A stretch of DNA of 64,000 nucleotides from an uncultured Clostridia bacterium. GTDB lineage: Bacteria; Bacillota; Clostridia; Christensenellales; UBA1242. Within the stretch, counting starts at the first letter, position 1. Every line of letters begins with the position of its first letter. Below the pieces are notes generated by a model, which saw only the letters and a program-made list of their open reading frames with translations, was not told where the DNA came from and made no database searches. Made by a program: the position numbers and the translations under genes. Below, in pieces: positions 9,149 through 52,058 of the stretch. Where the stretch lies: NCBI GenBank assembly GCA_930990515.1, contig CAKNPS010000004.1:1-64000 (forward strand), in the 5' to 3' direction.

Positions 9149-9976
9149 ATGGCTATAATTAAGAGTAATCCAACTTCAGCTGGTAGAAGATTTTACACAA
9201 AACTCGCTGCTGAAGAAATAACAAAGAAAGCACCTGAAAAATCTCTCCTTGCTGTTAAGAAAAAACATGCTGGAAAGAATGCTCAAGGTAAAATCACAGT
9301 TCGTCACAAGGGTGGCGGAAATAGACAAAAATATCGTATCATTGACTTTAAGAGAAACAAAGATAACATTCCTGCAAAGGTTGTTGGAATTGAATATGAC
9401 CCAAACAGAACGGCATATATCGCACTCCTTTCATATAAGGACGGAGAAAAAAGATATATCATCGCTCCAAACGGACTTAAAGTTGGCGATATTCTTATGA
9501 GTGGCTCAAATGTTGAAATCAGAGTTGGAAACAATCTTCCACTTTCTGATATTCCAGTTGGTTCTCTCATTCACAACATTGAACTTGAACCAAAGAAAGG
9601 CGGACAACTCGCTCGTTCTGCAGGTGCTGAAGTTCAACTTATGGCAAAAGAAGGCAAATATGCCACACTTCGTCTTCCAAGTGGCGAAATGAGAAAAGTT
9701 CTTTTAACTTGCCGTGCAACCATTGGAACAGTTGGTAACTTAGACCACGAACTTGTTTCTCTTGGTAAGGCTGGAAGAAAAAGACACATGGGTGTTCGTC
9801 CAACCGTTCGTGGTGTTGTTATGAACCCTAATGACCACCCACATGGTGGTGGTGAAGGTAAGAGCCCTGTTGGTATGGCAACACCTGTTACACCTTGGGG
9901 TAAACCTGCACTTGGATACAAGACAAGAAAGAAAAATAAACAATCTAACCGTTTAATGGTTAAGAGAATTAATTAA
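9149..9976 (+). CDS. rplB: 50S ribosomal protein L2
   Basis: 275 residues, full length. It shows the conserved [23 protein letters not shown] segment, the SH3-like core, and near the C-terminus the [17 protein letters not shown] loop, whose His contributes to peptidyl transferase function, followed by the basic tail. L2 is a primary 23S-binding protein needed for subunit association. AGGAGG precedes the ATG. The gap to rpsS is 11 nt. Confidence 0.98.
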
Positions 9977-9987
9977 GGAGCAAGAGT

Positions 9988-10266
9988 ATGAAGAAAGAAG
10001 TTAAACAGCCTTATGTTAGCCCAAGACTTATGAAAAAAGTTCTTGAAATGACTGAAAGTGGCGTTAAGAAACCAATCAAAACTTGGTCAAGAAGTTCAAC
10101 TATCTATCCAGAATTTGTCGGTTTCACTTTCGCTGTTCATAATGGAAAGAAACATATCCCTGTATACTGCACTGCAGATATGGTTGGTCATAAACTTGGT
10201 GAATTCTCTTTAACTAGAACTTTCAAAGGTCACGCAGGTCAAAAGAAAACTGCGTCAAATAGATAA
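9988..10266 (+). CDS. rpsS: 30S ribosomal protein S19
   Basis: 92 residues. The family features [46 protein letters not shown] are intact (head of the 30S subunit, next to S13). The N-terminus [17 protein letters not shown] is slightly diverged from the common SLKKGPFV form but aligns in length. The ATG has AAGGAG 9 nt upstream. rplV follows after 12 nt. Confidence 0.96.
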
Positions 10267-10278
10267 GAGAGGTGAAAA

Positions 10279-10674
10279 ATGGCTACAAGAATTAGACAAA
10301 AAGCAGAAAAAAGAGCTGTAAATAAAGATAACCGTCCTTATGCTGTTGCAAAAGATGTTCGTATGAGTTCTTCAAAGGTTAGAATTGTTTTGGACAACAT
10401 AAGAGGAAAGAAAGTTAATGAAGCAGTTGCTATCTTAACATATATGCCACAAAAAGGGGCATACGAAAGTTTGAAAGTTCTTAAAAGTGCAATCGCAAAT
10501 GCTGAAAACAATAAAGGACTTTCTGCTGACAACTTAATCGTTGCTGAATGTTATACAACACCAGGTCCTATGATGAAGAGAGTAAACTTCAGAGGTAGAG
10601 GTAGAGTTGATCATATCATTAAGAGAAGTTGTCACATCACAATCATCTTAGATGAAATGAAGGAGGCAAAATAA
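10279..10674 (+). CDS. rplV: 50S ribosomal protein L22
   Basis: 131 residues, somewhat longer than the usual ~110 because of an N-terminal extension of about 20 basic residues (MATRIRQKAEKRAVNKDNRP). The core AKDVRMSSSKVRIVLDNIRGKKVNEA and the tunnel-lining beta hairpin with PMMKRVNFRGRGRVDHIIKR are clear. L22 lines the nascent-chain tunnel. Its stop overlaps the rpsC start by one base. Confidence 0.97.
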   Translation: MATRIRQKAEKRAVNKDNRPYAVAKDVRMSSSKVRIVLDNIRGKKVNEAVAILTYMPQKGAYESLKVLKSAIANAENNKGLSADNLIVAECYTTPGPMMKRVNFRGRGRVDHIIKRSCHITIILDEMKEAK

Positions 10675-11339
10675 TGGGACAAAAAGTTAATCCTATTGGA
10701 CTTAGAATTGGTATCAATAAAGATTGGCAATCAACTTGGTATGCTAGTAAACAAGATTTTGCCGCTAACATTAAAGAAGACCACGATATTCGTGAATATT
10801 TCAAGAAAAAACATTCTGCTTCTGGCGTTTCTAAAATTGAAATTGAAAGAACAGAATCAAGACTTACAATCAATATCTACACTGGAAAACCTGGTATGAT
10901 TATCGGAACTAAAGGTGCTGGAATTGAACAAATCAAAAAAGACCTTGGAAAAATTATCCGTCCTGTTAAAAACCTTTCACTTAATGTGAAGGAAATCAAG
11001 AAACCTGACCTTGATGCTCAACTTGTTGCTGACAGCATTGCTCAACAACTTGAAAAGCGTGTTCAATGGCGTCGTGCTTTGAAACAAGGTATTCAAAAGG
11101 TTATGAAGGCAGGAGCAAAAGGTTGTAAAGTTCAAGTAAGTGGTGTTATTGATGGTGCAAACACAATGGCAAGAACTGAAAAGTATATGGAAGGTTCTCT
11201 TCCACTTCATACTCTTCGTGCTGACATTGACTATGCTACTTCCGCTGCTTACACAAACTATGGTAAACTTGGCGTTAAATGCTGGATTTTCAAGGGCGAA
11301 ATTTTGCCAAGCAAAGCCGAGAAAGGAGGGCAAGAATAA
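10674..11339 (+). CDS. rpsC: 30S ribosomal protein S3
   Basis: 221 residues. It has the N-terminal [14 protein letters not shown], a KH RNA-binding domain with [17 protein letters not shown] around residue 75, and the C-terminal S3 domain with [21 protein letters not shown]3 is part of the mRNA entry tunnel and its helicase function. It overlaps both neighbours by one base (TAATG), linking it translationally with rplV and rplP. Confidence 0.98.
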
Positions 11340-11782
11340 TGTTAATGCCTAAAAGAGTTAAAAGAAGAAAGGTTATGCGTGGCAGAATGACTGGTAAGGC
11401 AACAAGAGGCAACACTTTGACTTTTGGTTCTTACGGAATTATCGCCACAGAGCCTTGTTGGATTAAATCTAACCAAATCGAAGCTGCTCGTATTGCTCTT
11501 ACTCGTTACATTAAAAGAGGTGGTAAGGTTTGGATTAAGATTTTCCCTGATAAACCTGTAACAAAGAAACCTGCTGAAACTCGTATGGGTTCAGGTAAAG
11601 GTAATCCAGAATTCTGGGTTGCTGTTGTAAAACCAGGTAGAGTTCTTTTTGAAATTGAAGGTGTGAGTGAAGAAGTTGCTCGCGAGGCTCTTCGTCTTGC
11701 TGGACACAAACTTCCTTGCAAAGTTAAGTTCATAAAGAAAGAAACTGAAACTAACGAAGGTGGTGAGAAGAATGAAGAATGA
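11339..11782 (+). CDS. rplP: 50S ribosomal protein L16
   Basis: 147 residues starting [19 protein letters not shown]. The frame is open further upstream, but that part is read-through of rpsC in another frame. The ATG at 11339 is preceded by AAGGAGG and overlaps the rpsC stop by one base. The conserved [26 protein letters not shown] segment contacts the A-site tRNA region. It overlaps rpmC by 11 nt. Confidence 0.97.
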
Positions 11783-38775: not shown

Positions 38776-39465
38776 TTATTGTGACATTTTTTTCTTTTTA
38801 TTTTTGTTTTTCATAAAAAGGAATGCCATAATAATTCCAATGCACGCAAGTGCAATCGTGATGGCATATATGATTGCAGGATTAATGCCATCAGGGGATA
38901 TTTCTTCGGTTTTGATGTAGCCATATTCTAAAGAGTTTTCCACTTTGACAGCGACTCTTGTGTAAGGAAGGCTATTGTCATATCCTTCATAGAGATATAC
39001 TCTTGAACCTTTTACTAATAGTGTTTCTGTTGGCGTTATTTCTTCGCCAGTTGCCTCATATAGATAAACATCATTTTTTAAGGTTGCATTGAAAGTTGGA
39101 TATGTTTCAATGTTAGAGATATTTTCTGTCACAAAATCTGAAAAGATATATCCTTGTGTGATTGTTGTATTGTTAACTGATAGAACGGCGTAAAAAAGTT
39201 GCCCCTCACTATCTTCGTAAGTGTTTAAGCCATTTTCTCCTTCTTCCAAAATCAAGATGTCTTTGTGCCTAACAATAATAGGTTCATTATTTTCATCTAT
39301 GACTTTTTCAGAAGTAAAAGATGGAGAAGAATAGATGTAGCAATAGTTTGCAATACAAATCCACTCTTTTTCGCTTTCGGCACTTACAAAGTTTACACTA
39401 GGCAAACATAATAAAAGAAAACTTAATAAGAGTAAAATTTTTCTCACTTCCCTATTATCTAACAT
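38776..39465 (-). CDS. Secreted SH3-like protein with C-terminal membrane anchor
   Basis: 229 residues. It has a signal peptide (about 8-29, ending VSAES), two beta-rich modules (about 35-110 and 125-190, the first with CYIYSSPSFTSEKV typical of bacterial SH3 domains), then a transmembrane helix (about 200-222) and a Lys-rich tail. It is likely to face the cell wall and bind peptidoglycan or a spore-envelope component. The start is uncertain. The ATG at 39465 has only a weak AAGTGA site and lies between a good -35 and -10 on this strand. A GTG at 39447 is the alternative. Confidence 0.7.
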   Translation of the reverse strand: MLDNREVRKILLLLSFLLLCLPSVNFVSAESEKEWICIANYCYIYSSPSFTSEKVIDENNEPIIVRHKDILILEEGENGLNTYEDSEGQLFYAVLSVNNTTITQGYIFSDFVTENISNIETYPTFNATLKNDVYLYEATGEEITPTETLLVKGSRVYLYEGYDNSLPYTRVAVKVENSLEYGYIKTEEISPDGINPAIIYAITIALACIGIIMAFLFMKNKNKKKKMSQ

Positions 39466-39587: not shown

Positions 39588-40010
39588 TTAATCTTCTTTT
39601 TCATTTGGTTTACAATGCACTTCATAAATTTGTTCTAAAACTCTGTCGCTTGGAATATCTAATCTTCCTGAATAGACTTTACGAAAAGTCCATCGTATTA
39701 TTTCTTGCACATCTTTAATTTCAATATTATAGTCTTTTGAAAATTCTTCTATCGTTTGTGGAATAGGATTATTTTCATCAAGTCCATAAAGTTTAGTAAA
39801 AACAATTTGTCCCGCTTTTGGGAAATGCTTAAAAAGACTTTTAATTGCTTCAACAAATCTTCTTTTTTCGCAAACAACTTTGTTTTTTAAAAAATATTCT
39901 CCGAATTTTAAGTAATTTTTATATAAAACAAAATCTCGGTAATAATCATCCGATTTAATGAATTTTTCTAGTTGTTCTTTGCTCATTTTATCAATATCAT
40001 AATTTTCCAT
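39588..40010 (-). CDS. Sigma region-4-like helix-turn-helix protein
   Basis: 140 residues. After a helical N-terminal part, residues ~70-115 (VFTKLYGLDENNPIPQTIEEFSKDYNIEIKDVQEIIRWTFRKV) follow the pattern of sigma-70 region 4.2: LRYGLDG ... TLEEIGKxLGVSRERVRQIExxAL. Regions 2 and 3 are missing, so it is not a complete sigma factor. It could be an anti-sigma, phage-type regulator or DNA-binding protein. Its promoter predicts a leaderless transcript. It lies on the left edge of the cwlD cassette region and in the orientation of the cargo genes. Confidence 0.6.
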   Translation of the reverse strand: MENYDIDKMSKEQLEKFIKSDDYYRDFVLYKNYLKFGEYFLKNKVVCEKRRFVEAIKSLFKHFPKAGQIVFTKLYGLDENNPIPQTIEEFSKDYNIEIKDVQEIIRWTFRKVYSGRLDIPSDRVLEQIYEVHCKPNEKED

Positions 40011-40045: not shown

Positions 40046-40105
40046 TAGCGGAAAATATCGGCGAATTAGTTTTGTGTGTGATTTTACTTTGCTTTTTTAT
40101 TGACA

Positions 40106-40201
40106 TTTGCTATGCGGTCAAGACGCTAAGTTCGCCAAAGACACAATATACCATTGTTATTGATGCGGGGTATTCGGATTAGAGGTTGAGTTAGGATAGT
40201 A
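40106..40201 (+). pseudogene. Decayed cwlD 5' fragment, copy 0
   Basis: About 95 bases align with codons ~27-55 of the other copies (TTTGCTATGCGGTCA near 40106, TTCGCCAAAG near 40131, CCATTGTTATTGATGCGGGG at 40151-40170), followed by a variant end motif TTGAGTTAGGATAGTA. The upstream part is worn down to a few matching stretches. It is the leftmost and most degraded copy, as expected for the oldest insertion. Confidence 0.7.
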
Positions 40202-40239: not shown

Positions 40240-40614
40240 TTATGACTTATAATCATAAGGAATTTTGTTTTTCTTTTTACCTAGTAGGTTTACAATGTAA
40301 CCATTTTCCACCTTGCACCAAGCGGTTTTATCGGGTAACATTTCATATATATCTTCATCAGTAGCATTGCTTTCCTTAATCACTTCCATGTCTTCAATTT
40401 TAACATCAATTAGAATATCGTCTTCTATTGTTTCAATATTTTCGTCAGTCCAATGAAAGTTTTTATCAAAAAAGCGTTTATCAATAAAAACAACTTCAAA
40501 ACTATCTTCATGAATTTCAGGGGAATTTATTCTTCCTATTCTTCCTTTATAAATTCCATTTTCTGTATAAGAATTACAAGTATTTAAAACTTTTATCTCA
40601 TCAAATAATTTCAT
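40240..40614 (-). CDS. Small acidic protein, possible immunity partner
   Basis: 124 residues, very acidic and beta-rich in the first half (YTENGIYKGRIGRINSPEIHEDSFEVVFID), then EDDILIDVKIEDMEVIKESNATDEDIYEMLPD. The length, acidity and four-base overlap with the upstream gene suggest an immunity or antitoxin partner, comparable to DUF4926-type immunity proteins. This is inference from context only. It is the 3' gene of cassette A. Confidence 0.5.
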   Translation of the reverse strand: MKLFDEIKVLNTCNSYTENGIYKGRIGRINSPEIHEDSFEVVFIDKRFFDKNFHWTDENIETIEDDILIDVKIEDMEVIKESNATDEDIYEMLPDKTAWCKVENGYIVNLLGKKKNKIPYDYKS

Positions 40615-41249
40615 TTTGTCCAGCCTCCTATTGGTGTATTATTTTTTAATTGTCCATTTGGATAAACAATATAACTAGATGTAATTAGAAAAATTCTGTT
40701 TGCTTTTTCTCTTTTTCCTGGGAACTGAAGTTTAATTCTTATTCTAAAACCATATTTTTTCTTGTCTTTTGGTGGGGGATTGTTAGTATAATTTCCATTG
40801 CAATATGATTCTTTACTTAATGATTCAATAAGTTGAAAAACTTCTTGTTTATCTTCAATATTATAACCCATTGATAGCAACCAGTCTTTTTTATCTAAAA
40901 ACAAGTAATCCATTCTTCGCTCTAAATCAAAAATAATAATTTGATTTGGATTAGGTTTGGTTATAGAATTAGTTTCACAATGACAATTAGGGTGATATAA
41001 ACCTCTTTTGTTTATTGGAATTAGTGGAGTAAATAGGTAATTAAATTCTTCCGGTTTTTTGCCATCTTCATTTTTAAACCAACATTGATTTATAATAGTG
41101 CAATCAACACAATGCGGTTTTATTAATTGCTCATTAAAATTTATCTTTGAAAAACTTTCAATTGTCCAAGGATTTCTATCATCATAAATTTCTACCCATT
41201 CACTAAAATTTGTAATTAATTTTTCATAAACACTATCAAATACACTCAT
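40611..41249 (-). CDS. Cys/His-containing protein, possible DUF6883-like toxin
   Basis: 212 residues. The central part has Cys and His residues (HCVDCTIINQCW, YHPNCHCE) of the HPNCHC type seen in phage head morphogenesis and toxin proteins. The C-terminal ~100 residues (KKDWLLSMGYN ... KKYGFRIRIKLQFPG ... NRIFLITSSYIVYPNG) recall the DUF6883 domain found in polymorphic toxins. No secretion signal is seen. Together with the overlapping acidic gene it forms a candidate toxin/immunity pair. AAGGAG lies 14 nt before the ATG, a long spacing. All assignments are tentative. Confidence 0.5.
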   Translation of the reverse strand: MSVFDSVYEKLITNFSEWVEIYDDRNPWTIESFSKINFNEQLIKPHCVDCTIINQCWFKNEDGKKPEEFNYLFTPLIPINKRGLYHPNCHCETNSITKPNPNQIIIFDLERRMDYLFLDKKDWLLSMGYNIEDKQEVFQLIESLSKESYCNGNYTNNPPPKDKKKYGFRIRIKLQFPGKREKANRIFLITSSYIVYPNGQLKNNTPIGGWTK

Positions 41250-41381
41250 ATATTAACATATTTCTCCTTCTCTTTAAAACTAATTTTATGACAAAAAGAG
41301 AATAACACTCAAAATTTGCATATTAAATGTTTTGTGTCATTTTTTTATTAAATAAACGAAATTAGTTTAATAAAATATAAT

Positions 41382-41567
41382 ATGAAATTTTTAACAATAA
41401 AAAAGCACACAATGTGTGTTCTTTTGGTGGGTGTAATTTTGATTTGCTCTATTGTTGGTGTTTGCTATGTGGTCAGGGTGGCAAGTTCGCCAAAGATAGT
41501 GCGCACCATTGTTATTGATGCGGGGCATGGCGGGCGAGATTTCAAGTTAGGACGGTATGTAAAATAA
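41382..41567 (+). pseudogene. Truncated cwlD 5' end, copy 1
   Basis: Encodes 61 residues: MKFLTIKKHTMCVLLVGVIL, the rest of a membrane helix, SSPKIVRTIVIDAGHGGRD, then FKLGRYVK and a stop. It matches the N-terminus of the intact amidase through the catalytic His and then enters the 16-bp end motif (41542-41557). The promoter is retained: TAAAAT ends 5 nt before the ATG, without a ribosome binding site. If expressed it gives a membrane-inserted peptide without enzyme activity. Confidence 0.8.
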
Positions 41568-41598
41568 AAAAGCATATCGGATTGATATGCTTTTTTTA
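41566..41598 (+). terminator. Bidirectional terminator after copy 1 (GCATATC type)
   Basis: AAGCATATC-GGATT-GATATGCTT with A-rich and T-rich flanks. The same hairpin recurs at 43986, 45470 and 52035. Confidence 0.85.
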
Positions 41599-42645
41599 TA
41601 TTGTATTATGCTGGCATTTAGTGCAAAGCGGTGCCAAGTTTAAGTTGTACTTATCAACAATTTTTTTAGATTTTTTATAGACATCATTAAGAAAAGATGC
41701 AGAAGGATAATTGCCAATATTGTTGTAAGGTATGTAAGGGGATAACATTGGCATACAACCACACTTGCAAATTTCTTCAACTGCTTTAAGAGTGTCTTTT
41801 TTACTTTCTAAACCAACAATCAAGCCAGATCTTACGTTTTGCGAACCAAAGATTTCACTGGCAATTTTCAGGAAATAAAAATAATTATCTCTACCTAATT
41901 TATATTTTTCGGGGCAATATTTTGCACATATTTCGTTGTTATATAATTCAACATTTACCGAAAGTCCACTTACGCCAATTTTTTTAAGATGCTCTATATA
42001 AGGTTTAAATTGACTTCTATCTGTATAGCTATCAAAACCTCTTGGAGTTGTCATCACATCAAAATCGTATTTAGGAAACTTCTTACAAAAATATTCGTAT
42101 ACTTTTGTCAAATATTCTAAATCGCATTGTTTTGGACTCCCGCCAGATATAAGGATATGAGTTACTCTCTCATCTTTTAACAAATATTTTAAACAAGTAT
42201 TTATATCTTCAATACTATTTTTTTTGTATTTTATTGAATTCATAGAGCAGAATGCACAATGATTATTGCAGCCGTTTATTGGAGATATTCTAACACGATC
42301 AAAGTGAGAAACTGCTATATTTGATTTTAGTAAATCATGAGTTTTTTGATCAATGTTTTTAGCGATGCAAAGCCATGGTTCCCAAATTTTTATGGATTCT
42401 CTTATTCTTTTATGTTTAAGTATTAAATTATTTTGTTCTAATATAATTTTATATGAAGATTTGGAATTAATGCGACTTGTAACATAAAAATTGTTACCAA
42501 GTTCTATCATTATGCCAGTAGTTGTTATATAATCGTCGTTATAAAATTTTTCTCCAAAATTTTTGTATAAATATTTTAAAGCTTTATTTTCAATATCAAC
42601 CCCATTAGTCATAAGGTTAATTTTAATTTTTTGTAAATTTTTCAT
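41596..42645 (-). CDS. Radical SAM enzyme
   Basis: 349 residues. The radical SAM cluster motif GCNNHCAFCS (CxxxCxxC, about 125-134) lies in a TIM-barrel region with ISGGSPKQ (GGEP-like motif binding SAM) and SVNVELYN. A final CTKCQHNT near the C-terminus adds Cys residues that could bind an auxiliary cluster. The N-terminal ~110 residues are a separate domain. Directly upstream on the same strand is an ATP-grasp gene, so the pair looks like a small biosynthetic or peptide-modifying operon, although no precursor peptide is evident. It is the cargo of cassette B. Confidence 0.88.
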   Translation of the reverse strand: MKNLQKIKINLMTNGVDIENKALKYLYKNFGEKFYNDDYITTTGIMIELGNNFYVTSRINSKSSYKIILEQNNLILKHKRIRESIKIWEPWLCIAKNIDQKTHDLLKSNIAVSHFDRVRISPINGCNNHCAFCSMNSIKYKKNSIEDINTCLKYLLKDERVTHILISGGSPKQCDLEYLTKVYEYFCKKFPKYDFDVMTTPRGFDSYTDRSQFKPYIEHLKKIGVSGLSVNVELYNNEICAKYCPEKYKLGRDNYFYFLKIASEIFGSQNVRSGLIVGLESKKDTLKAVEEICKCGCMPMLSPYIPYNNIGNYPSASFLNDVYKKSKKIVDKYNLNLAPLCTKCQHNTI

Positions 42646-42661
42646 CCGTAAATTTCCTTTT

Positions 42662-43606
42662 TTAGTTAAAGTTTTTTGTTAAAAGATTTAATTGCTTATC
42701 AAATAATGATTTTTTTCCTTTTTTTAACAACATTTCATTCAGTTTTGCTGTTGAACCTTGGAAGCGGGCGTTTATTTCCATAAAATATAAAGTGTTATTT
42801 GATAAAATAAAATCTATTCCAAGAACTCCTTGATATCCAATGTCAAGCAAGAATCTCTTCCCAATCTTTTTTGCTTCTCTTCTAACAAGATTTTCAGTAG
42901 AATTGCTTAAATTAAATAAAGCGCCATCATAATTCATCTGATTGTTATCGGTTTTTATGATTTGTTGGGAAGGGGTAAAATATTCCACTTGACCATTTTG
43001 TATAAAAAGATGTATATTGATAGGAAAAAAATTTTTTTGTAAGACTGAAATACAGTATGTTGTAAAATGTTTTAATTTTTTTAATTGTTGTTTGTAATTG
43101 TTTTTTGTAAAGATATATGTATTAGCTCCAGCGAAACCAAATTTTTCTTGCAGAACAAAATCACAGTTTTCTGTTTTCCAATGATTGAGTAGATAATTTT
43201 TTATTTTTCTTTTCCCATGAATATAATCATAATGTAAAATATTTGTAATATTTTTTAGTTTTTTTCTGATTTCAAATTTATTGTTAAGTAAATTATAAAT
43301 TTGATATTTATTAGCACTTAAAATGTGGTATTTTCGCAAATTAAAATGTTTTAAATTGTGTTCATTATAGCGAATAAAATATGCATTTTTGTTCTTTTTG
43401 ATTATCTTTTTTATGCATTTAATATAAAACCTGTCTATCTTATCTAAATCTGCAATATTATTGTGGTCCACAGATTTGTTAGGATAAACATCTTTAAAAC
43501 AAATATTGTCTTTCGTATTAAAATTCCTTTCTACAGTTATTGAACCACAAAAATTATTTTGAGTTTGTAAAATGTTATCGTTAATACCAATAAAATATAT
43601 GTCCAT
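42662..43606 (-). CDS. ATP-grasp family ligase
   Basis: 314 residues, very AT-rich and Lys/Asn-rich. The C-terminal half shows ATP-grasp features: VLQEKFGFAGANTYIF (strand and flexible glycine loop), a Lys-rich stretch, GVLGIDFILSNNTLYFMEINARFQGSTAKL with the Mg-binding Glu and Asn. Such enzymes join a carboxylate to an amine or thiol using ATP. The partner radical SAM gene starts 16 nt downstream. AAGGAAA precedes the ATG. The substrate is unknown; peptide or amino-acid conjugation is an inference. Confidence 0.85.
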   Translation of the reverse strand: MDIYFIGINDNILQTQNNFCGSITVERNFNTKDNICFKDVYPNKSVDHNNIADLDKIDRFYIKCIKKIIKKNKNAYFIRYNEHNLKHFNLRKYHILSANKYQIYNLLNNKFEIRKKLKNITNILHYDYIHGKRKIKNYLLNHWKTENCDFVLQEKFGFAGANTYIFTKNNYKQQLKKLKHFTTYCISVLQKNFFPINIHLFIQNGQVEYFTPSQQIIKTDNNQMNYDGALFNLSNSTENLVRREAKKIGKRFLLDIGYQGVLGIDFILSNNTLYFMEINARFQGSTAKLNEMLLKKGKKSLFDKQLNLLTKNFN

Positions 43607-43758
43607 AATTTTTCCTTGCTATTCCTATCCTTATAAAGTTTATTATACATTAATTTTAATACAATGCAAAATGATTTAATTAAAATATAGATAATAATTT
43701 GCCTATAAAAATTTTTTATTAATGTTATATAAAATATTTTTACTTAATAGAATACAAT

Positions 43759-43935
43759 ATGAAGATTTTTACAATAAAAAAGCACACAATGTGTGTTCTT
43801 TTGGTGGGTGTAATTTTGATTTGCTCTATTGTTGGTGTTTGCTATGCTGTAAATGCGACAACTTCGCCAAAAGCATTATACACCATTGTCATTGATGCAG
43901 GGCATGGTGGAGTAGATGTCAAGTTAGGACAGTAA
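43759..43935 (+). pseudogene. Truncated cwlD 5' end, copy 2
   Basis: 58 codons: MKIFTIKKHTMCVLLVGVIL..., TTSPKALYTIVIDAGHGG, then VDVKLGQ and a stop within the 16-bp end motif (43919-43934). TAGAAT ends 5 nt before the ATG, again predicting a leaderless RNA. It is highly similar to copies 1 and 3 and less so to the N-terminus of the intact gene. Confidence 0.82.
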
Positions 43936-44018: not shown

Positions 44019-45056
44019 TTATAAATAGCAAGGATTTTCAACTTTCTCCCAAATATCTCGGACATATTCATTGTCTATCTTGGCGTTTTTGATAAAATCT
44101 TCCTTGTCTTTGAAATATGCAACTTCATCATCGTTTGGTCCCCAACTAAATTCAATTTTAGATAGTTCCTTATTTTTATCATGAATAAGAAATAAACAGA
44201 AATCTTTATTTTTATAACTAAATACAACTTCGCTATAAACATAAAGCATTTCCATAAATTCATTTAAGTTAGGTTTAAAGGGTTTTCCTTCTTTATAAAG
44301 TTGTTTGGCCTTATTTAATGAAATCAAGTTTGGAAAAAGGACGTCGTTTTTCATTTTTTCTCCAAGGACATCAAATTTCCAGCCACATTTATTGCATTCT
44401 CCATTTCCATATTGGTCTTTTATGCAATTAGTTTTGCACACAGGGCATTTGCAACTTCTATATATTCTTTTGAAAGAACTTTCTTTCCCACAAACTGGAC
44501 ACCTGCCTTTTTGCGAATTAACGGTGATATAACTTCCGCATGCACAAGTGTAGTGAGCGGCATAGAAAAAGCCCCTTCTCTTCACTGACATTTTTCTAAT
44601 GATTTCTTCAATTTGACTTGGCGAAGAGAAGTCGATTTTAATGCGAAACTCGCGTGATTTTGAATTTTTGATATTATTTTTGCGCTCTTTTGTATCCATT
44701 GAGTCAAAAAATTGATGATTGTCAGTGCTGTAAACACTAAACTCAAAGTGATTAAGTTTGGCAAAATTGAATTTTAAAATTTCATTTTTTGCGAGAGTAA
44801 ATTTGATAAAGCCAAGATAGTTTGTGGCGGTTGCAAGGTCAAATCCGATTTGAGTTTTGTATCCATGGAGACGGCAGGTGATAACAGGTATTGGATAATT
44901 TCTGTAAATCAGTTCTCCGTCAATACGAGAGGAGATTTGATTATTAAAACTTAGTGCATTCTCAATATGATAAGAAAAAAGTAATTTCAAAATTTCATCT
45001 GCTAAAGATAGTGCAGAGGAATAGAGCTTGTTTAATTGTAAGATTTTATCTTTCAT
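44019..45056 (-). CDS. Zinc-ribbon protein with CPCC-like domain
   Basis: 345 residues. The N-terminal ~165 residues are a mixed alpha/beta region of unknown family. A cysteine block follows (CACGS, CPVCG, CKCPVCKTNC, CNKCGW; about 170-230), which can hold two zinc ions. After it, LFPNLISLNKAKQLYKEGKPF resembles the end of the CPCC cysteine-rich immunity-type domain (CGWEDDP ... SLNEARKNY). The C-terminal ~90 residues form another small domain. It is the single cargo of cassette C. TATAAT ends 6 nt before the ATG with TTGTGT 17 bp upstream, so the mRNA is probably leaderless. Confidence 0.6.
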   Translation of the reverse strand: MKDKILQLNKLYSSALSLADEILKLLFSYHIENALSFNNQISSRIDGELIYRNYPIPVITCRLHGYKTQIGFDLATATNYLGFIKFTLAKNEILKFNFAKLNHFEFSVYSTDNHQFFDSMDTKERKNNIKNSKSREFRIKIDFSSPSQIEEIIRKMSVKRRGFFYAAHYTCACGSYITVNSQKGRCPVCGKESSFKRIYRSCKCPVCKTNCIKDQYGNGECNKCGWKFDVLGEKMKNDVLFPNLISLNKAKQLYKEGKPFKPNLNEFMEMLYVYSEVVFSYKNKDFCLFLIHDKNKELSKIEFSWGPNDDEVAYFKDKEDFIKNAKIDNEYVRDIWEKVENPCYL

Positions 45057-45091: not shown

Positions 45092-45238
45092 AGCATATTT
45101 TTAATTTTCTAAAATCTTTCTAGATATTTTTAAAAGACTTTTTTGTTTGGAAATAATTTATAATAAAGATTTTGTTAATTCAATATTTACTGTCATCTTT
45201 TTGTGATAATTACAAAATTTCTCAAATAAAATATTTTG

Positions 45239-45421
45239 ATGAAACTTAAATTTTTAATAATAAAAAAGCACACGTTGTGTGTTATTTTGGTGAGTGTGAT
45301 TTTGATTTGCTCGGTGGTTGGTGTGTGCTATGCGGTTAGGGTGGTAAGTTCGCCAAAGATAGTGCGCACCATTGTGATCGATGCAGGGCATGGTGGAGTG
45401 GATGTCAAGATAGGGCAGTGA
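45239..45421 (+). pseudogene. Truncated cwlD 5' end, copy 3
   Basis: 60 codons from the ATG at 45239: MKLKFLIIKKHTLCVILVSV..., VVSSPKIVRTIVIDAGHGG, then VDVKIGQ and TGA in the end motif (45405-45420). TAAAAT ends 6 nt before the ATG. The stop and the sequence after the core again differ from the intact gene and agree with the other copies. Confidence 0.82.
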
Positions 45422-45510: not shown

Positions 45511-45804
45511 TTAAATTCCAAATGGATTGTTTTTTAAAAATTCTTCAATGTCAACTTTTTGTAGAACAAGTTTATCAAGTTCGTCCGCCAAAACTTTTTC
45601 GTCCATTGTCATAATATTGGGATTTTGATAGAAAAGGTCTGGCAAAGCTTCTTTTGGGTAGCCATAAAAATTTAAAACTTGTATCACACCTTTAACTTCT
45701 TTTAGTGTGGTCACATCAAGAGTCGGAGCGATGTTTTTCATATCTTCAATTTCATTTTTTGAAAACTTCATCTGGAGCAAAAATTTTTCCAAATCTTTTT
45801 CCAT
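45511..45804 (-). CDS. Small helical protein, single mTERF-like unit
   Basis: 97 residues from the ATG with AAAGGAG 6 nt upstream, 1 nt after the stop of the large repeat protein. It is all-helical. The stretch KGVIQVLNFYGYPKEALPDLFYQNPNIMTMDEK follows the mTERF pattern (hydrophobic helix, Gly-Tyr, then a helix ending xNPxIM). It may interact with, or be a minimal relative of, the upstream repeat protein. Function unknown. Confidence 0.6.
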   Translation of the reverse strand: MEKDLEKFLLQMKFSKNEIEDMKNIAPTLDVTTLKEVKGVIQVLNFYGYPKEALPDLFYQNPNIMTMDEKVLADELDKLVLQKVDIEEFLKNNPFGI

Positions 45805-45805
45805 A

Positions 45806-47215
45806 TTATTCTCCTTTCCCTTTATCTTTTTTCTGCAAATCTTCAAATTTAGTTTCAAGTTTTTTGTCCCCATTTTTCTCGGCAAGTTTGTTATATTCGC
45901 TGTTTACAAACCTTACAACTTCTTTTGTGATTGGGAATTTTTCCATAAGTTCATTGCTTTCAATGCCATACTTTTTTTGAAACCTTTTTTCATTACATAA
46001 GATATCAGCGGGTTTTGCTCTTTCATTCTGCTTTATATATGCATATCTTGCCCAAGTTTTCTTTTCACTTGTCATATACCAAATTGTGTCAAGAAAACTT
46101 TTGTTCCCAAAATCAATATATAAAAGCATATATCTAAAAATAAAACTGTTTGATGGTGCAGTTAAAATGGAAGGATTTTTTATGATATCGTTTTTATCTA
46201 ATCCAATTTTGTCAATGTTTTTCTTCTTATCTAACACGCTTCCATTATTATAACCCAAAAGAGCAGGTAGTGTTTTAAACATTTTACTAAATTCAGTTTG
46301 TGTTAAATTGAATGTTTTCATATAAAAGTTTGCTTTATCTAAAACACTTTCATTATTTAAACTCAAAAGAGTAGGTAGTGTTTTAAACATTTTACTAAAT
46401 TCAGCTTGTGTTAAATCAAATGTGCTTTTATAAAAATTCACTTTATCTAAAACACTTTCATTATTATAACTCAAAAGAGCAGGCGAAGTTTTTAGCATTT
46501 TGTTAAATTCAGCTTGAGTTAAATCAAATGTGCTTTTATAAAAATTCACTTTATCTAAAACACTTTCATTATTATAACTCAAAAGAGCAGGCGAAGTTTT
46601 TAGCATTTTGTTAAATTCAGCTTGAGTTAAATCAAATGTCTTTTTATAAAAATTTACTTTATCTAGCACACTTTCATTATTTAAACTCAAAAGAGTAGGC
46701 AAAGTTTTAAGTATTTTGTTAAATTCAGCTTGTGTTAGATCAAATGTTTCCATATAAAAATTTACTTTATGTAACACACTTTCGTTGTTTAAACCCAAAA
46801 GAGTAGGCAAAGTTTTAAGTATTTTATTAAATTCAGTTTGTGTTAAATCAAATGTGCTTTTATAAAAATTCACTTTATCTAAAACACTTTCTTTATTATA
46901 ATTCAAAAGAGTAGGTAGTGTTTTAAACATTTTGCTAAATTCAGTTTGTGTTAAATTAAATGTTGTTAAATAAAAATTCACTTTGTCTAAAATACTTTCG
47001 TTGTTTAAACCCAAAAGAGTAGGCAAAGTTTTAAGTATTTTATTAAATTCAGTTTGAGTTAAACTGAAAGTTGTCATATAAAATTTTGCCCTTTTTAAAA
47101 TTTCTTCTTTTTCAAGGTAATAAATGGATGAAAGAAGATTCTCTTTTCTTTTAACATCTTCATCTGTCAAATCAAAATATTCTTTCAAGGTTTCTATAAC
47201 ACTTACTAAACTCAT
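45806..47215 (-). CDS. Protein with eight 36-residue mTERF-like repeats
   Basis: 469 residues from the ATG at 47215, which has GGAG 5-6 nt upstream; an in-frame TTG 12 nt earlier lies on that site. After ~38 residues come eight near-identical 36-residue units (residues 39-326) of the form VLDKVNFYKSTFDLTQ-EFNKILKTLPTLL-xxNNES, then a degenerate ninth and a Lys-rich 110-residue C-terminus. The LxxxPxLLxxxxxxLxxKVxFY spacing matches the helical repeats of mTERF proteins, nucleic-acid binders of mitochondria and plastids. A nucleic-acid-binding or protein-scaffold role is plausible. It is the main cargo of cassette D. Confidence 0.65.
   Translation of the reverse strand: MSLVSVIETLKEYFDLTDEDVKRKENLLSSIYYLEKEEILKRAKFYMTTFSLTQTEFNKILKTLPTLLGLNNESILDKVNFYLTTFNLTQTEFSKMFKTLPTLLNYNKESVLDKVNFYKSTFDLTQTEFNKILKTLPTLLGLNNESVLHKVNFYMETFDLTQAEFNKILKTLPTLLSLNNESVLDKVNFYKKTFDLTQAEFNKMLKTSPALLSYNNESVLDKVNFYKSTFDLTQAEFNKMLKTSPALLSYNNESVLDKVNFYKSTFDLTQAEFSKMFKTLPTLLSLNNESVLDKANFYMKTFNLTQTEFSKMFKTLPALLGYNNGSVLDKKKNIDKIGLDKNDIIKNPSILTAPSNSFIFRYMLLYIDFGNKSFLDTIWYMTSEKKTWARYAYIKQNERAKPADILCNEKRFQKKYGIESNELMEKFPITKEVVRFVNSEYNKLAEKNGDKKLETKFEDLQKKDKGKGE
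46238..47101 (-). repeat. Tandem 108-bp repeats inside the mTERF-like gene
   Basis: Eight in-frame units of 108 bp. Two adjacent units around 46430-46640 are almost identical at DNA level, including third positions, which indicates recent unit duplication. Copy number is likely to vary between strains. Confidence 0.85.
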
Positions 47216-47305
47216 TTTAATCTCCAATCAAATTTTATCACAATCTATTAAAGTTGTCAATATGAGGAGTAAGAGTTTTTGGCATCGATATATTCAAGCA
47301 TATTG

Positions 47306-47334
47306 TTATAAAGTCTAATTTTCAAAAATACAAT
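47306..47334 (+). promoter_or_regulatory. Promoter of the intact cwlD-like gene (leaderless layout)
   Basis: TACAAT (47329-47334) ends 5 nt before the ATG. The -35 is weak: TTATAA (47306-47311) gives a 17-bp spacer, and TTGTTA at 47303 gives 20 bp. No ribosome binding site is present, as in copies 1-3. Confidence 0.5.
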
Positions 47335-47339
47335 ACTTT

Positions 47340-48038
47340 ATGAAAGTTTTGACATTGAGAAAACGGGCGATTGTAATCGGGTTGTGTGTTTTGTTGTGCG
47401 TGGCGGGAGTGGTGATTTATTTCACTGCCATTCGTCCAACCTTCCAGCCCAAACCACAATACACCATTGTCATTGACGCGGGGCACGGTGGGAGAGATGG
47501 GGGAGCGGTTGGAAAGACTACTGAAACAACTGAAAGTTATTTGAATTTGCAATTTTCATTAAAACTCAAAAGCATCTGTGAAGAATATGGCTTTAAGGTT
47601 GTGTTGACACGAAAAGATATGAATGGGATTTATTCTGCTTTTGCTAGCAATAAAAAACGAAGTGAAATGGAAAAGCGAATGGAAATTATTGAAAGCGCAA
47701 ATCCTGATTTAGTTGTCAGCATTCATATGAATAGTTTTTCTAATTCTTCTGCTCGGGGAGCACAGGTTTTTTATGCAGAAAATTTTCCAGAAAACGAAGA
47801 ATTTGCCCAAACTGTTCAAGATGCCTTAAATGAGAAAATTCCTAATGCAAAGAAAACGCCAAAATCAAGCGACTTCTATGTTATTAACACCACATCAAAA
47901 CCAAGTATTTTGGTGGAATGTGGTTTCTTGTCAAACCCAGAAGAAGAACGCTTGCTTGTGAGTGAAGAATATCAAGAAGATTTTTGTTATGTTCTTTTCT
48001 ATGGAATTTTATCTTATTTTTCAGTAAACAATCTTTAA
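47340..48038 (+). CDS. cwlD: N-acetylmuramoyl-L-alanine amidase, CwlD type
   Basis: 232 residues. An N-terminal membrane helix (about 10-30) is followed by an Amidase_3 domain: TIVIDAGHGGRDGG with zinc ligand His49, ETTESYLNL with ligand Glu65, VVSIHMNSFS with ligand His129, and ILVECGFLSNPEEE with the catalytic Glu near 201. It cleaves the MurNAc-L-Ala bond. CwlD of Bacillus prepares muramic-delta-lactam in the spore cortex, and the neighbouring spoIIE supports a sporulation role. Its 5' end differs from the four truncated copies upstream and may have come with the last cassette. No Shine-Dalgarno sequence. Confidence 0.9.
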   Translation: MKVLTLRKRAIVIGLCVLLCVAGVVIYFTAIRPTFQPKPQYTIVIDAGHGGRDGGAVGKTTETTESYLNLQFSLKLKSICEEYGFKVVLTRKDMNGIYSAFASNKKRSEMEKRMEIIESANPDLVVSIHMNSFSNSSARGAQVFYAENFPENEEFAQTVQDALNEKIPNAKKTPKSSDFYVINTTSKPSILVECGFLSNPEEERLLVSEEYQEDFCYVLFYGILSYFSVNNL

Positions 48039-52028: not shown

Positions 52029-52058
52029 ATAAAAAAGCATATCAAATGATATGCTTTT
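52029..52058. terminator. Bidirectional terminator (GCATATC type)
   Basis: AAAAAAGCATATC-AAAT-GATATGCTTTTTT between convergent tilS and the propeller-like gene. It is the same hairpin as at the cassette ends. Confidence 0.85.

Follow-up and report, generated by a model that had tools for sequence, protein, structure and literature searches.

A pTERF gene pair among the cargo of a cwlD-anchored cassette array in uncultured Clostridia

The mTERF superfamily is mainly associated with mitochondria and chloroplasts. Although the mTERF family has been called apparently absent from prokaryotes in the literature on its plant members (PMC3981765), bacterial mTERF-like proteins were published in 2024 under the name "pTERF" (Hu et al., NAR; PMC11417379), and their existence is thus not new. 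According to the pTERF passages of that paper, these proteins come mainly from Bacillota MAGs, carry 3-11 tandem three-helix mTERF-like repeats and, where obtained from ruminant-gut Clostridia MAGs, are sequence-specific, nanomolar DNA binders: pTERF1 has a Kd of 1.87 nM and the motif ACTNNNAGTC, and the motif of pTERF2 differs (PMC11417379). The protein described here, P0001, is likewise bacterial, has eight such repeats and has homologues in Clostridia MAGs. The same passages mention no partner gene or genomic context (PMC11417379), whereas P0001 has both. P0001 is a further pTERF, and what is newly seen is an acidic partner and the array of gene cassettes around the pair, which is anchored in the sporulation gene cwlD.

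Several known mobile systems resemble this array in part. In integrons and CALINs, too, small cassettes that share a constant end carry unrelated cargo, and the most recent one lies beside a fixed anchor. They are recognised by an IntI integrase or attC sites; in the array-bearing genome G073 no dedicated tyrosine or serine recombinase was found, and no attC-like site was recognised in the unfolded sequence of the cwlD array. The anchor here lies at the beginning of the coding sequence of a sporulation gene, and each cassette carries the promoter and N-terminus of that host gene. SXT/R391 elements, inserted in prfC, are large integrase-encoding elements found at gene 5' ends. As in the cwlD array, the gene that they enter is restored to function by a replacement promoter and 5' end, but the cwlD units are of 0.8-4.3 kb, stand in series and encode no integrase. 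In the orphan toxin/immunity modules of Rhs/CDI loci, fragments of a displaced gene likewise alternate with small cargo of toxin/immunity type; what is displaced in the present case is the start of the spore gene cwlD, to which the cargo is not fused. Finally, the dif (pdif) modules of Acinetobacter are integrase-free and shuffle (e.g. PMC6449649, PMC13141974), which the cwlD cassettes also do; the cwlD site, in contrast, is not dif-like beyond chance and is chromosomal and within a gene. Nothing relevant on cwlD insertion sites was found in the open-access literature, and the array appears to be undescribed in the literature that is searchable as open-access text.

From a window of 64,000 nucleotides, the whole stretch of Clostridia DNA that was analysed, and from its comparison with related genomes, we consider it probable that P0001, a pTERF of mTERF fold, and its partner P0002 form a pair that is carried as cargo in a cassette array anchored at the cwlD 5' end.

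The pTERF protein and its acidic partner

The gene pair occupies the following positions of the window:
45806..47215, minus strand: pTERF P0001, 469 aa, with an N-terminal cap, eight 36-aa repeats and a non-repeat C-terminal domain
46238..47101, minus strand: eight 108-nt repeat units
45511..45804, minus strand: acidic partner P0002, 97 aa, with mTERF-like helices, 1 bp past the pTERF stop

The boundaries of the P0001 reading frame are exact (ATG at 47215, TAA at 45806), and the eight 36-residue repeats reported in the initial annotation are indeed present as eight in-frame units spaced by 108 nt, far above chance; the gap between LKTLPTLL and VLDKVNFY, given there as eight residues, is of six (e.g. 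GLNNES). Identity between units is 61-97% at the protein level and 74-95% at the DNA level, units 5 and 6 being the closest pair (DNA 95%, protein 97%). The recent expansion proposed earlier is therefore right for this pair, as expansion or homogenisation. Among 33 units tabulated from four species, positions P27, L29, L30, F7, Y8, F12, L14, K21 and K24 are invariant and positions 3, 9, 10, 13, 17, 28 and 31 the most variable. The mTERF motif of proline 8 with hydrophobic residues at 11, 18 and 25 is found in the bacterial units: proline is present in 33/33, the leucine three residues past it is invariant, and the other two positions hold V/I and Tyr. pTERF1, in contrast, is described in the pTERF passages of PMC11417379 as being without the canonical Pro8/hydrophobic heptad features that the window family retains.

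Assignment to the mTERF superfamily, as first proposed, is borne out by Pfam, by profile searches of the PDB and by the predicted fold. The mTERF model PF02536 matches P0001 with 121.8 bits (curated cut-off 23.1; E 3.6e-35) and matches 25/25 divergent bacterial homologues. A phmmer search of P0001 against the PDB retrieved MTERF3 at 8e-5, and a profile built from 25 bacterial homologues retrieved MTERF3, MTERF1, mS93 and MTERF4 at 3e-21 to ~1e-9, MTERF3 and MTERF1 being best at ~1e-21. In the latter alignments the C-terminal 'iiknpailtaPaeklklryai' of the bacterial profile aligns with 'IIENPRVLDSSISTLKSRIKEL' of MTERF1, a transition of the form 'NP-x-x-L ... R' common to both. The AlphaFold2 model of P0001 (pLDDT 92.6) shows units built of a long helix, a helix and a short helix, and a Foldseek search against the PDB gave 15 matches with E <= 0.001, all of them mTERF. 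Viral structures yielded no significant structural match to the model.

It could be argued that P0001 is some other helical repeat protein (TPR, LRR or TALE-like) that resembles mTERF by chance, since near-identical repeats do yield spurious Pfam matches on it (DUF7443 etc.) and a TALE structure occurs among the structural matches (E 0.03). Against this, the first seventeen structural matches are all mTERF (17/17), with no TPR or leucine-rich fold among the strong ones, and PF02536 is also matched by every one of the divergent homologues, so that a chance resemblance is extremely improbable. The protein is basic (pI 9.0), and its gene lies on a bacterial chromosome and is not nuclear-encoded for an organelle, which makes it a homologue within the superfamily and not an organellar mTERF. 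P0001 is here classed as a pTERF of the mTERF superfamily. It shares with MTERF1, MTERF3 and MTERF4 the repeat fold and the conserved proline and hydrophobic positions, and differs from them in its bacterial chromosomal location, in the regularity of its 36-aa tandem repeats, in a C-terminal domain of its own and in its acidic partner.

This partner, noticed earlier as a smaller single-unit companion, is real and directly follows the repeat gene, its start codon lying 1 bp beyond the P0001 stop. P0002 is acidic (pI 4.6), as opposed to the basic P0001, and the basic/acidic pattern recurs in every pair. It matches the mTERF profile with E 1e-3, slightly short of the Pfam cut-off, and all of its homologues (11/11) match weakly as well, the best at 3.5e-6. 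When 112 genomes of the genus were searched with a profile, 11 genuine P0002 homologues were recovered, each located directly downstream of a pTERF gene, and two further weak matches, both within pTERF genes. The P0002 model (pLDDT 96) resembles mTERF structures with query-normalised TM-scores of up to 0.79, at E-values that are not significant.

The search for other bacterial members and their neighbours, suggested at the outset, recovered homologues together with the acidic partner and the cwlD context. Clear pTERFs occur in ~20 of the 112 genomes, and strong members, within multi-gene clusters, are also present in two further families of the class; beyond the class, matches are weak only. 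Named pTERF records are those of uncultured Clostridia MAGs (CALVTF010000031.1, CALWKD010000006.1, CALVMX010000007.1, CALWEZ010000027.1). A second pTERF clade, from several species of the genus, lies between lepA and a glycerophosphodiesterase gene, divergent from lepA (L070, for example at 9382-10716, L071, L072, L075, L077, L079, L080). It is without the small acidic partner and has nearby what we take, from its sequence, to be an RsmD-like gene. A search of these loci for lepA 5' fragments found none, and a cwlD-like array at lepA was rejected on this ground. Among the pTERF genes of the other families (L081:7723-10377, L082:8165-10178, L083:9865-11370, L085:7877-8998), two are in clusters that directly adjoin spo0A, and the pair at L085 adjoins the spoIIIA operon; proximity of pTERF to sporulation genes was thus seen repeatedly, as a descriptive observation.

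As to activity, the superhelical groove of P0001 is most likely where a specific sequence of double-stranded DNA is bound, the protein probably serving as a regulator or as a roadblock to transcription or replication. For the co-translated, acidic, single-unit P0002, the likeliest role would be that of a dedicated binding partner or inhibitor. We consider unlikely the alternative that pTERF acts on RNA or ribosomes, in the manner of MTERF4-NSUN4 or Tetrahymena mS93, and not on DNA. MTERF4 and mS93 do occur among its PDB profile and fold matches, and the clade beside lepA has the RsmD-like gene, named from sequence, nearby; yet MTERF3 and DNA-bound MTERF1 match best. In plants, mTERFs act on RNA (PMC10226603), but both bacterial relatives that were tested, pTERF1 and pTERF2, bind dsDNA with high affinity and with different motifs (PMC11417379), and it is by analogy with these measured cases that DNA binding and specificity are attributed to P0001.

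Anatomy of the cwlD array

The array extends in the window from the conserved gene F2 to intact cwlD, over 7.9 kb, as follows:
38776..39465, minus strand: F2, predicted secreted protein, conserved, far border of the array
39588..40010, minus strand: leftmost gene, between F2 and FRAG1, with no Pfam match, possibly the oldest cargo
40066..40179, plus strand: FRAG1, degenerate truncated cwlD 5' copy
40240..41249, minus strand: cargo cassette of two small genes, function not assigned
41379..41567, plus strand: FRAG2, truncated cwlD 5' copy
41538..41556, plus strand: junction motif of FRAG2, 2 mismatches to GATGTCAAGTTAGGACAGT
41596..43606, minus strand: cargo cassette of a radical SAM enzyme (41596-42645) and an ATP-grasp enzyme (42662-43606)
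43756..43933, plus strand: FRAG3, truncated cwlD 5' copy, almost the same as the intact cwlD 5' end of G066
43915..43933, plus strand: junction motif of FRAG3, exact GATGTCAAGTTAGGACAGT
44019..45056, minus strand: cargo before the pTERF cassette, CPCC zinc-ribbon-like protein of the commonest cargo family (15 genomes)
45236..45421, plus strand: FRAG4, truncated cwlD 5' copy, left border of the pTERF cassette
45401..45419, plus strand: junction motif of FRAG4, 2 mismatches to GATGTCAAGTTAGGACAGT
47340..48038, plus strand: intact cwlD, spore N-acetylmuramoyl-L-alanine amidase, the anchor
about 47434-47491: putative recombination zone in intact cwlD, codons ~33-51

The best NCBIfam match of the amidase gene is CwlD, under its strict cut-off, and a search for the amidase across the genus returned full genes along with many matches limited to residues 1 to ~53. 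Four such 5' fragments lie upstream of intact cwlD in the window, all on the plus strand, and cargo genes occupy the gaps between them. Three of the four end at codon ~51 and continue into GATGTCAAGTTAGGACAGT, FRAG1 being degenerate; the cwlD frame is kept through IDAGHGG (codon ~51), after which GATGTCAAGTTAGGACAGTA replaces the amidase body. The junction motif occurs 3 times in the window against 0 in shuffles (0 expected by chance). Look-alikes of the cargo genes at 40240..41249 are found in G127, and for one of them also in G110, and the radical SAM gene is present in G066 and G020 as well.

Other features of the window were recorded. The radical SAM and ATP-grasp pair may constitute a peptide- or small-molecule-modifying pathway. 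The arrangement GTTATA - about 15 nt - AATAAAATA, ending a few bases before the cwlD ATG, recurs in many copies (47265-47340 and upstream of fragments) and could be a sporulation promoter with a leaderless start. A hairpin, GCATATC-loop-GATATGC, occurs at 41572, 43988, 45472 and 52037 and behind unrelated genes in the genus; it was rejected as a cassette end and is a common terminator, because the copy at 52037 follows tilS.

Among the 112 genomes of the genus the junction pattern was found in 26, at 35 sites, and the reversed control pattern had no match. All fragments with an intact cwlD on the same fetched locus (27/27) lie upstream of it and collinear with it, at spacings of 0.77-4.3 kb. 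Comparison of 42 fragments with 35 intact genes revealed conservation of the junction even at synonymous positions that vary among the intact genes: at two third-codon sites 39/42 copies agree, whereas intact genes are mixed. Beyond codon ~52, nearly all 42 fragments have the same non-cwlD 16 nt, beside 29 unrelated cargo families. These families comprise the 81 ORFs of 42 cassettes, 62 of them on the strand opposite to cwlD, and 11 families recur in two or more genomes. By Pfam, the cargo includes a barnase-type ribonuclease, DUF4417, ankyrin and BspA-type LRR repeats, peptidyl-arginine deiminase and a glycosyltransferase. Empty sites were seen in two array-free genomes, in which F2 and cwlD are separated by 222 bp (G045) and 266 bp (G046).

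In two species the barnase-family ribonuclease and a small adjoining gene form an apparent toxin/immunity pair (L190:7922-8934, L196:6369-7365). The array of L182 (G016) has three fragments, including those at 11504 and 12985, and behind two of them lies nearly the same ~140-bp leader, which suggests a recent cassette duplication. No homologues or junctions were found in phage, plasmid or viral contigs, and an origin from these was rejected; so was a role in anti-phage defence, PADLOC having given no meaningful match for P0001, P0002 or the cargo.

Displacement, shuffling and transfer between species

As regards DISPLACEMENT and transfer, the intact cwlD of G066 is, over the 300 bp 5' of its junction, 96% identical to window FRAG3 and 51% to window intact cwlD, whereas over the 160 bp 3' of the junction it is 24% identical to FRAG3 and 78% to intact cwlD, the switch falling within about codons 33-51. 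Judged by sequence, window FRAG3 is a cwlD 5' end that is functional in a relative (G066). Between the window and G086, identity is 100% from ~46600 to ~47454 (~850 bp) and then falls to ~60% inside cwlD; the backbone genes spoIIE and tilS are 66-70% identical in nucleotides, as against 87-100% for two consecutive cassettes (pTERF, CPCC). Compared with G066, the cassettes are again the more similar part (pTERF 95%, CPCC 96%, radical-SAM/ATP-grasp 94-98%; backbone 77-88%), and their order there is unlike that of the window, with pTERF beside F2 and radical-SAM/ATP-grasp beside cwlD. The pTERF cassette of G086 spans a contig break, and the exact crossover point differs between comparisons. Taken together, the displaced 5' ends, the identity contrast and the changed order indicate that cassettes move and shuffle, and placement in the array plus cross-species identity indicate that pTERF is mobile cargo of it. 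The earlier suggestion of a mobile cassette therefore stands, the pair lying between truncated and intact cwlD 5' copies with a diagnostic junction and within the ~850 bp shared with a species of much more divergent cwlD body.

In G057, G066, G095 and G109 the pTERF pair borders F2 directly, no fragment intervening, and may thus be a native neighbour of cwlD in these genomes; the pair may have begun as such and become a cassette only in the lineage of G000 and G086. An explanation without any mobility, in which inheritance is vertical and the fragments arose by tandem duplication of cwlD and later decay, would account for the F2-pTERF-cwlD order common to several species, but not for the fixed breakpoint and foreign junction common to the fragments, nor for the shuffled order, the sharp identity switches at cwlD and the empty sites. 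We give it very little credence, the genome comparisons already refuting it unless the MAGs, all genomes compared being draft MAGs or drafts, are chimeric. In view of the fragments, the junction and the identity switches, the reading that pTERF simply neighbours cwlD by vertical descent was rejected.

Proposed cassette movement and its implications

Each cassette comprises a cargo of one to a few genes, a cwlD start that supplies the full promoter and codons 1-~51, and, on the right, an invariable end of about 20 nt (GATGTCAAGTTAGGACAGTAT) that adjoins cwlD codon ~51. In the proposed mechanism, such a unit, presumably as a circular intermediate, would enter by recombination inside cwlD codons ~33-51, giving intact cwlD a new promoter and N-terminus and reducing the previous 5' end to a truncated fragment. 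As the old 5' end would be displaced at each insertion, the newest cassette should be the one adjoining intact cwlD. A recombination machinery and a benefit to the host are likewise presumed in this proposal.

No recombinase was found to track the array: the array-bearing G073 (100% complete) has only the conserved XerS-like tyrosine recombinase, and serine recombinases are absent from several array-bearing genomes, including the complete G073. A tyrosine recombinase of one conserved type is present in 16/16 genomes tested, and is XerS-like in the two scanned. Directly behind the XerS-like gene lies a large conserved palindrome (e.g. ATATAGTGTGTTATGCGGTGCATACTACACTATAT; L203, L206, L208, L209, L214), probably the dif site of the lineage. 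The similarity of ATGCNGGNCAT to the cwlD core was no better than that of random 105-bp stretches of the window, and a Xer/dif module was rejected, the likeness of the junction core to the presumed dif-like palindromes not being above chance.

Homologous recombination alone could also move the array, with the recurring cwlD 5' segments, of at most ~250 bp, serving as homology, donor cassettes entering by transformation and old 5' ends being displaced like the orphan toxin modules of Rhs/CDI loci. We regard this as a serious competitor, at somewhat short of even chances: no recombinase tracks the array, crossover points vary between pairs, and the fragments of one genome tend toward the same core, as gene conversion would give. 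Homology would explain shuffling and transfer; it cannot, however, by itself join unrelated new cargo to one constant end, and the same 16 nt follow codon ~52 beside 29 unrelated cargo families. A site-specific step in cassette movement is therefore favoured, with moderate confidence. Tentatively, and with a probability that we would also place below one half, the array may represent a new integrase-free cassette system with a dedicated site in the cwlD coding start, in which each cassette swaps promoter and N-terminus, cassettes stand in order of arrival, the cargo is toxin/immunity-like, enzymatic or of mTERF type, and movement between species of this genus of uncultured Clostridia is effected by a putative recombinase.

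These results place the recently named bacterial relatives of mTERF in a genomic setting and assign them a dedicated partner protein and a way of spreading. They also describe an array of cassettes whose anchor is a developmental gene, in which each insertion swaps the promoter and first codons of the anchor. Should a site-specific machinery be at work, gut Clostridia with sporulation genes would possess an integron-like system. The junction motif offers a direct handle on the recombinase, on free cassettes and on further cargo, including tandem-repeat DNA-binding proteins.
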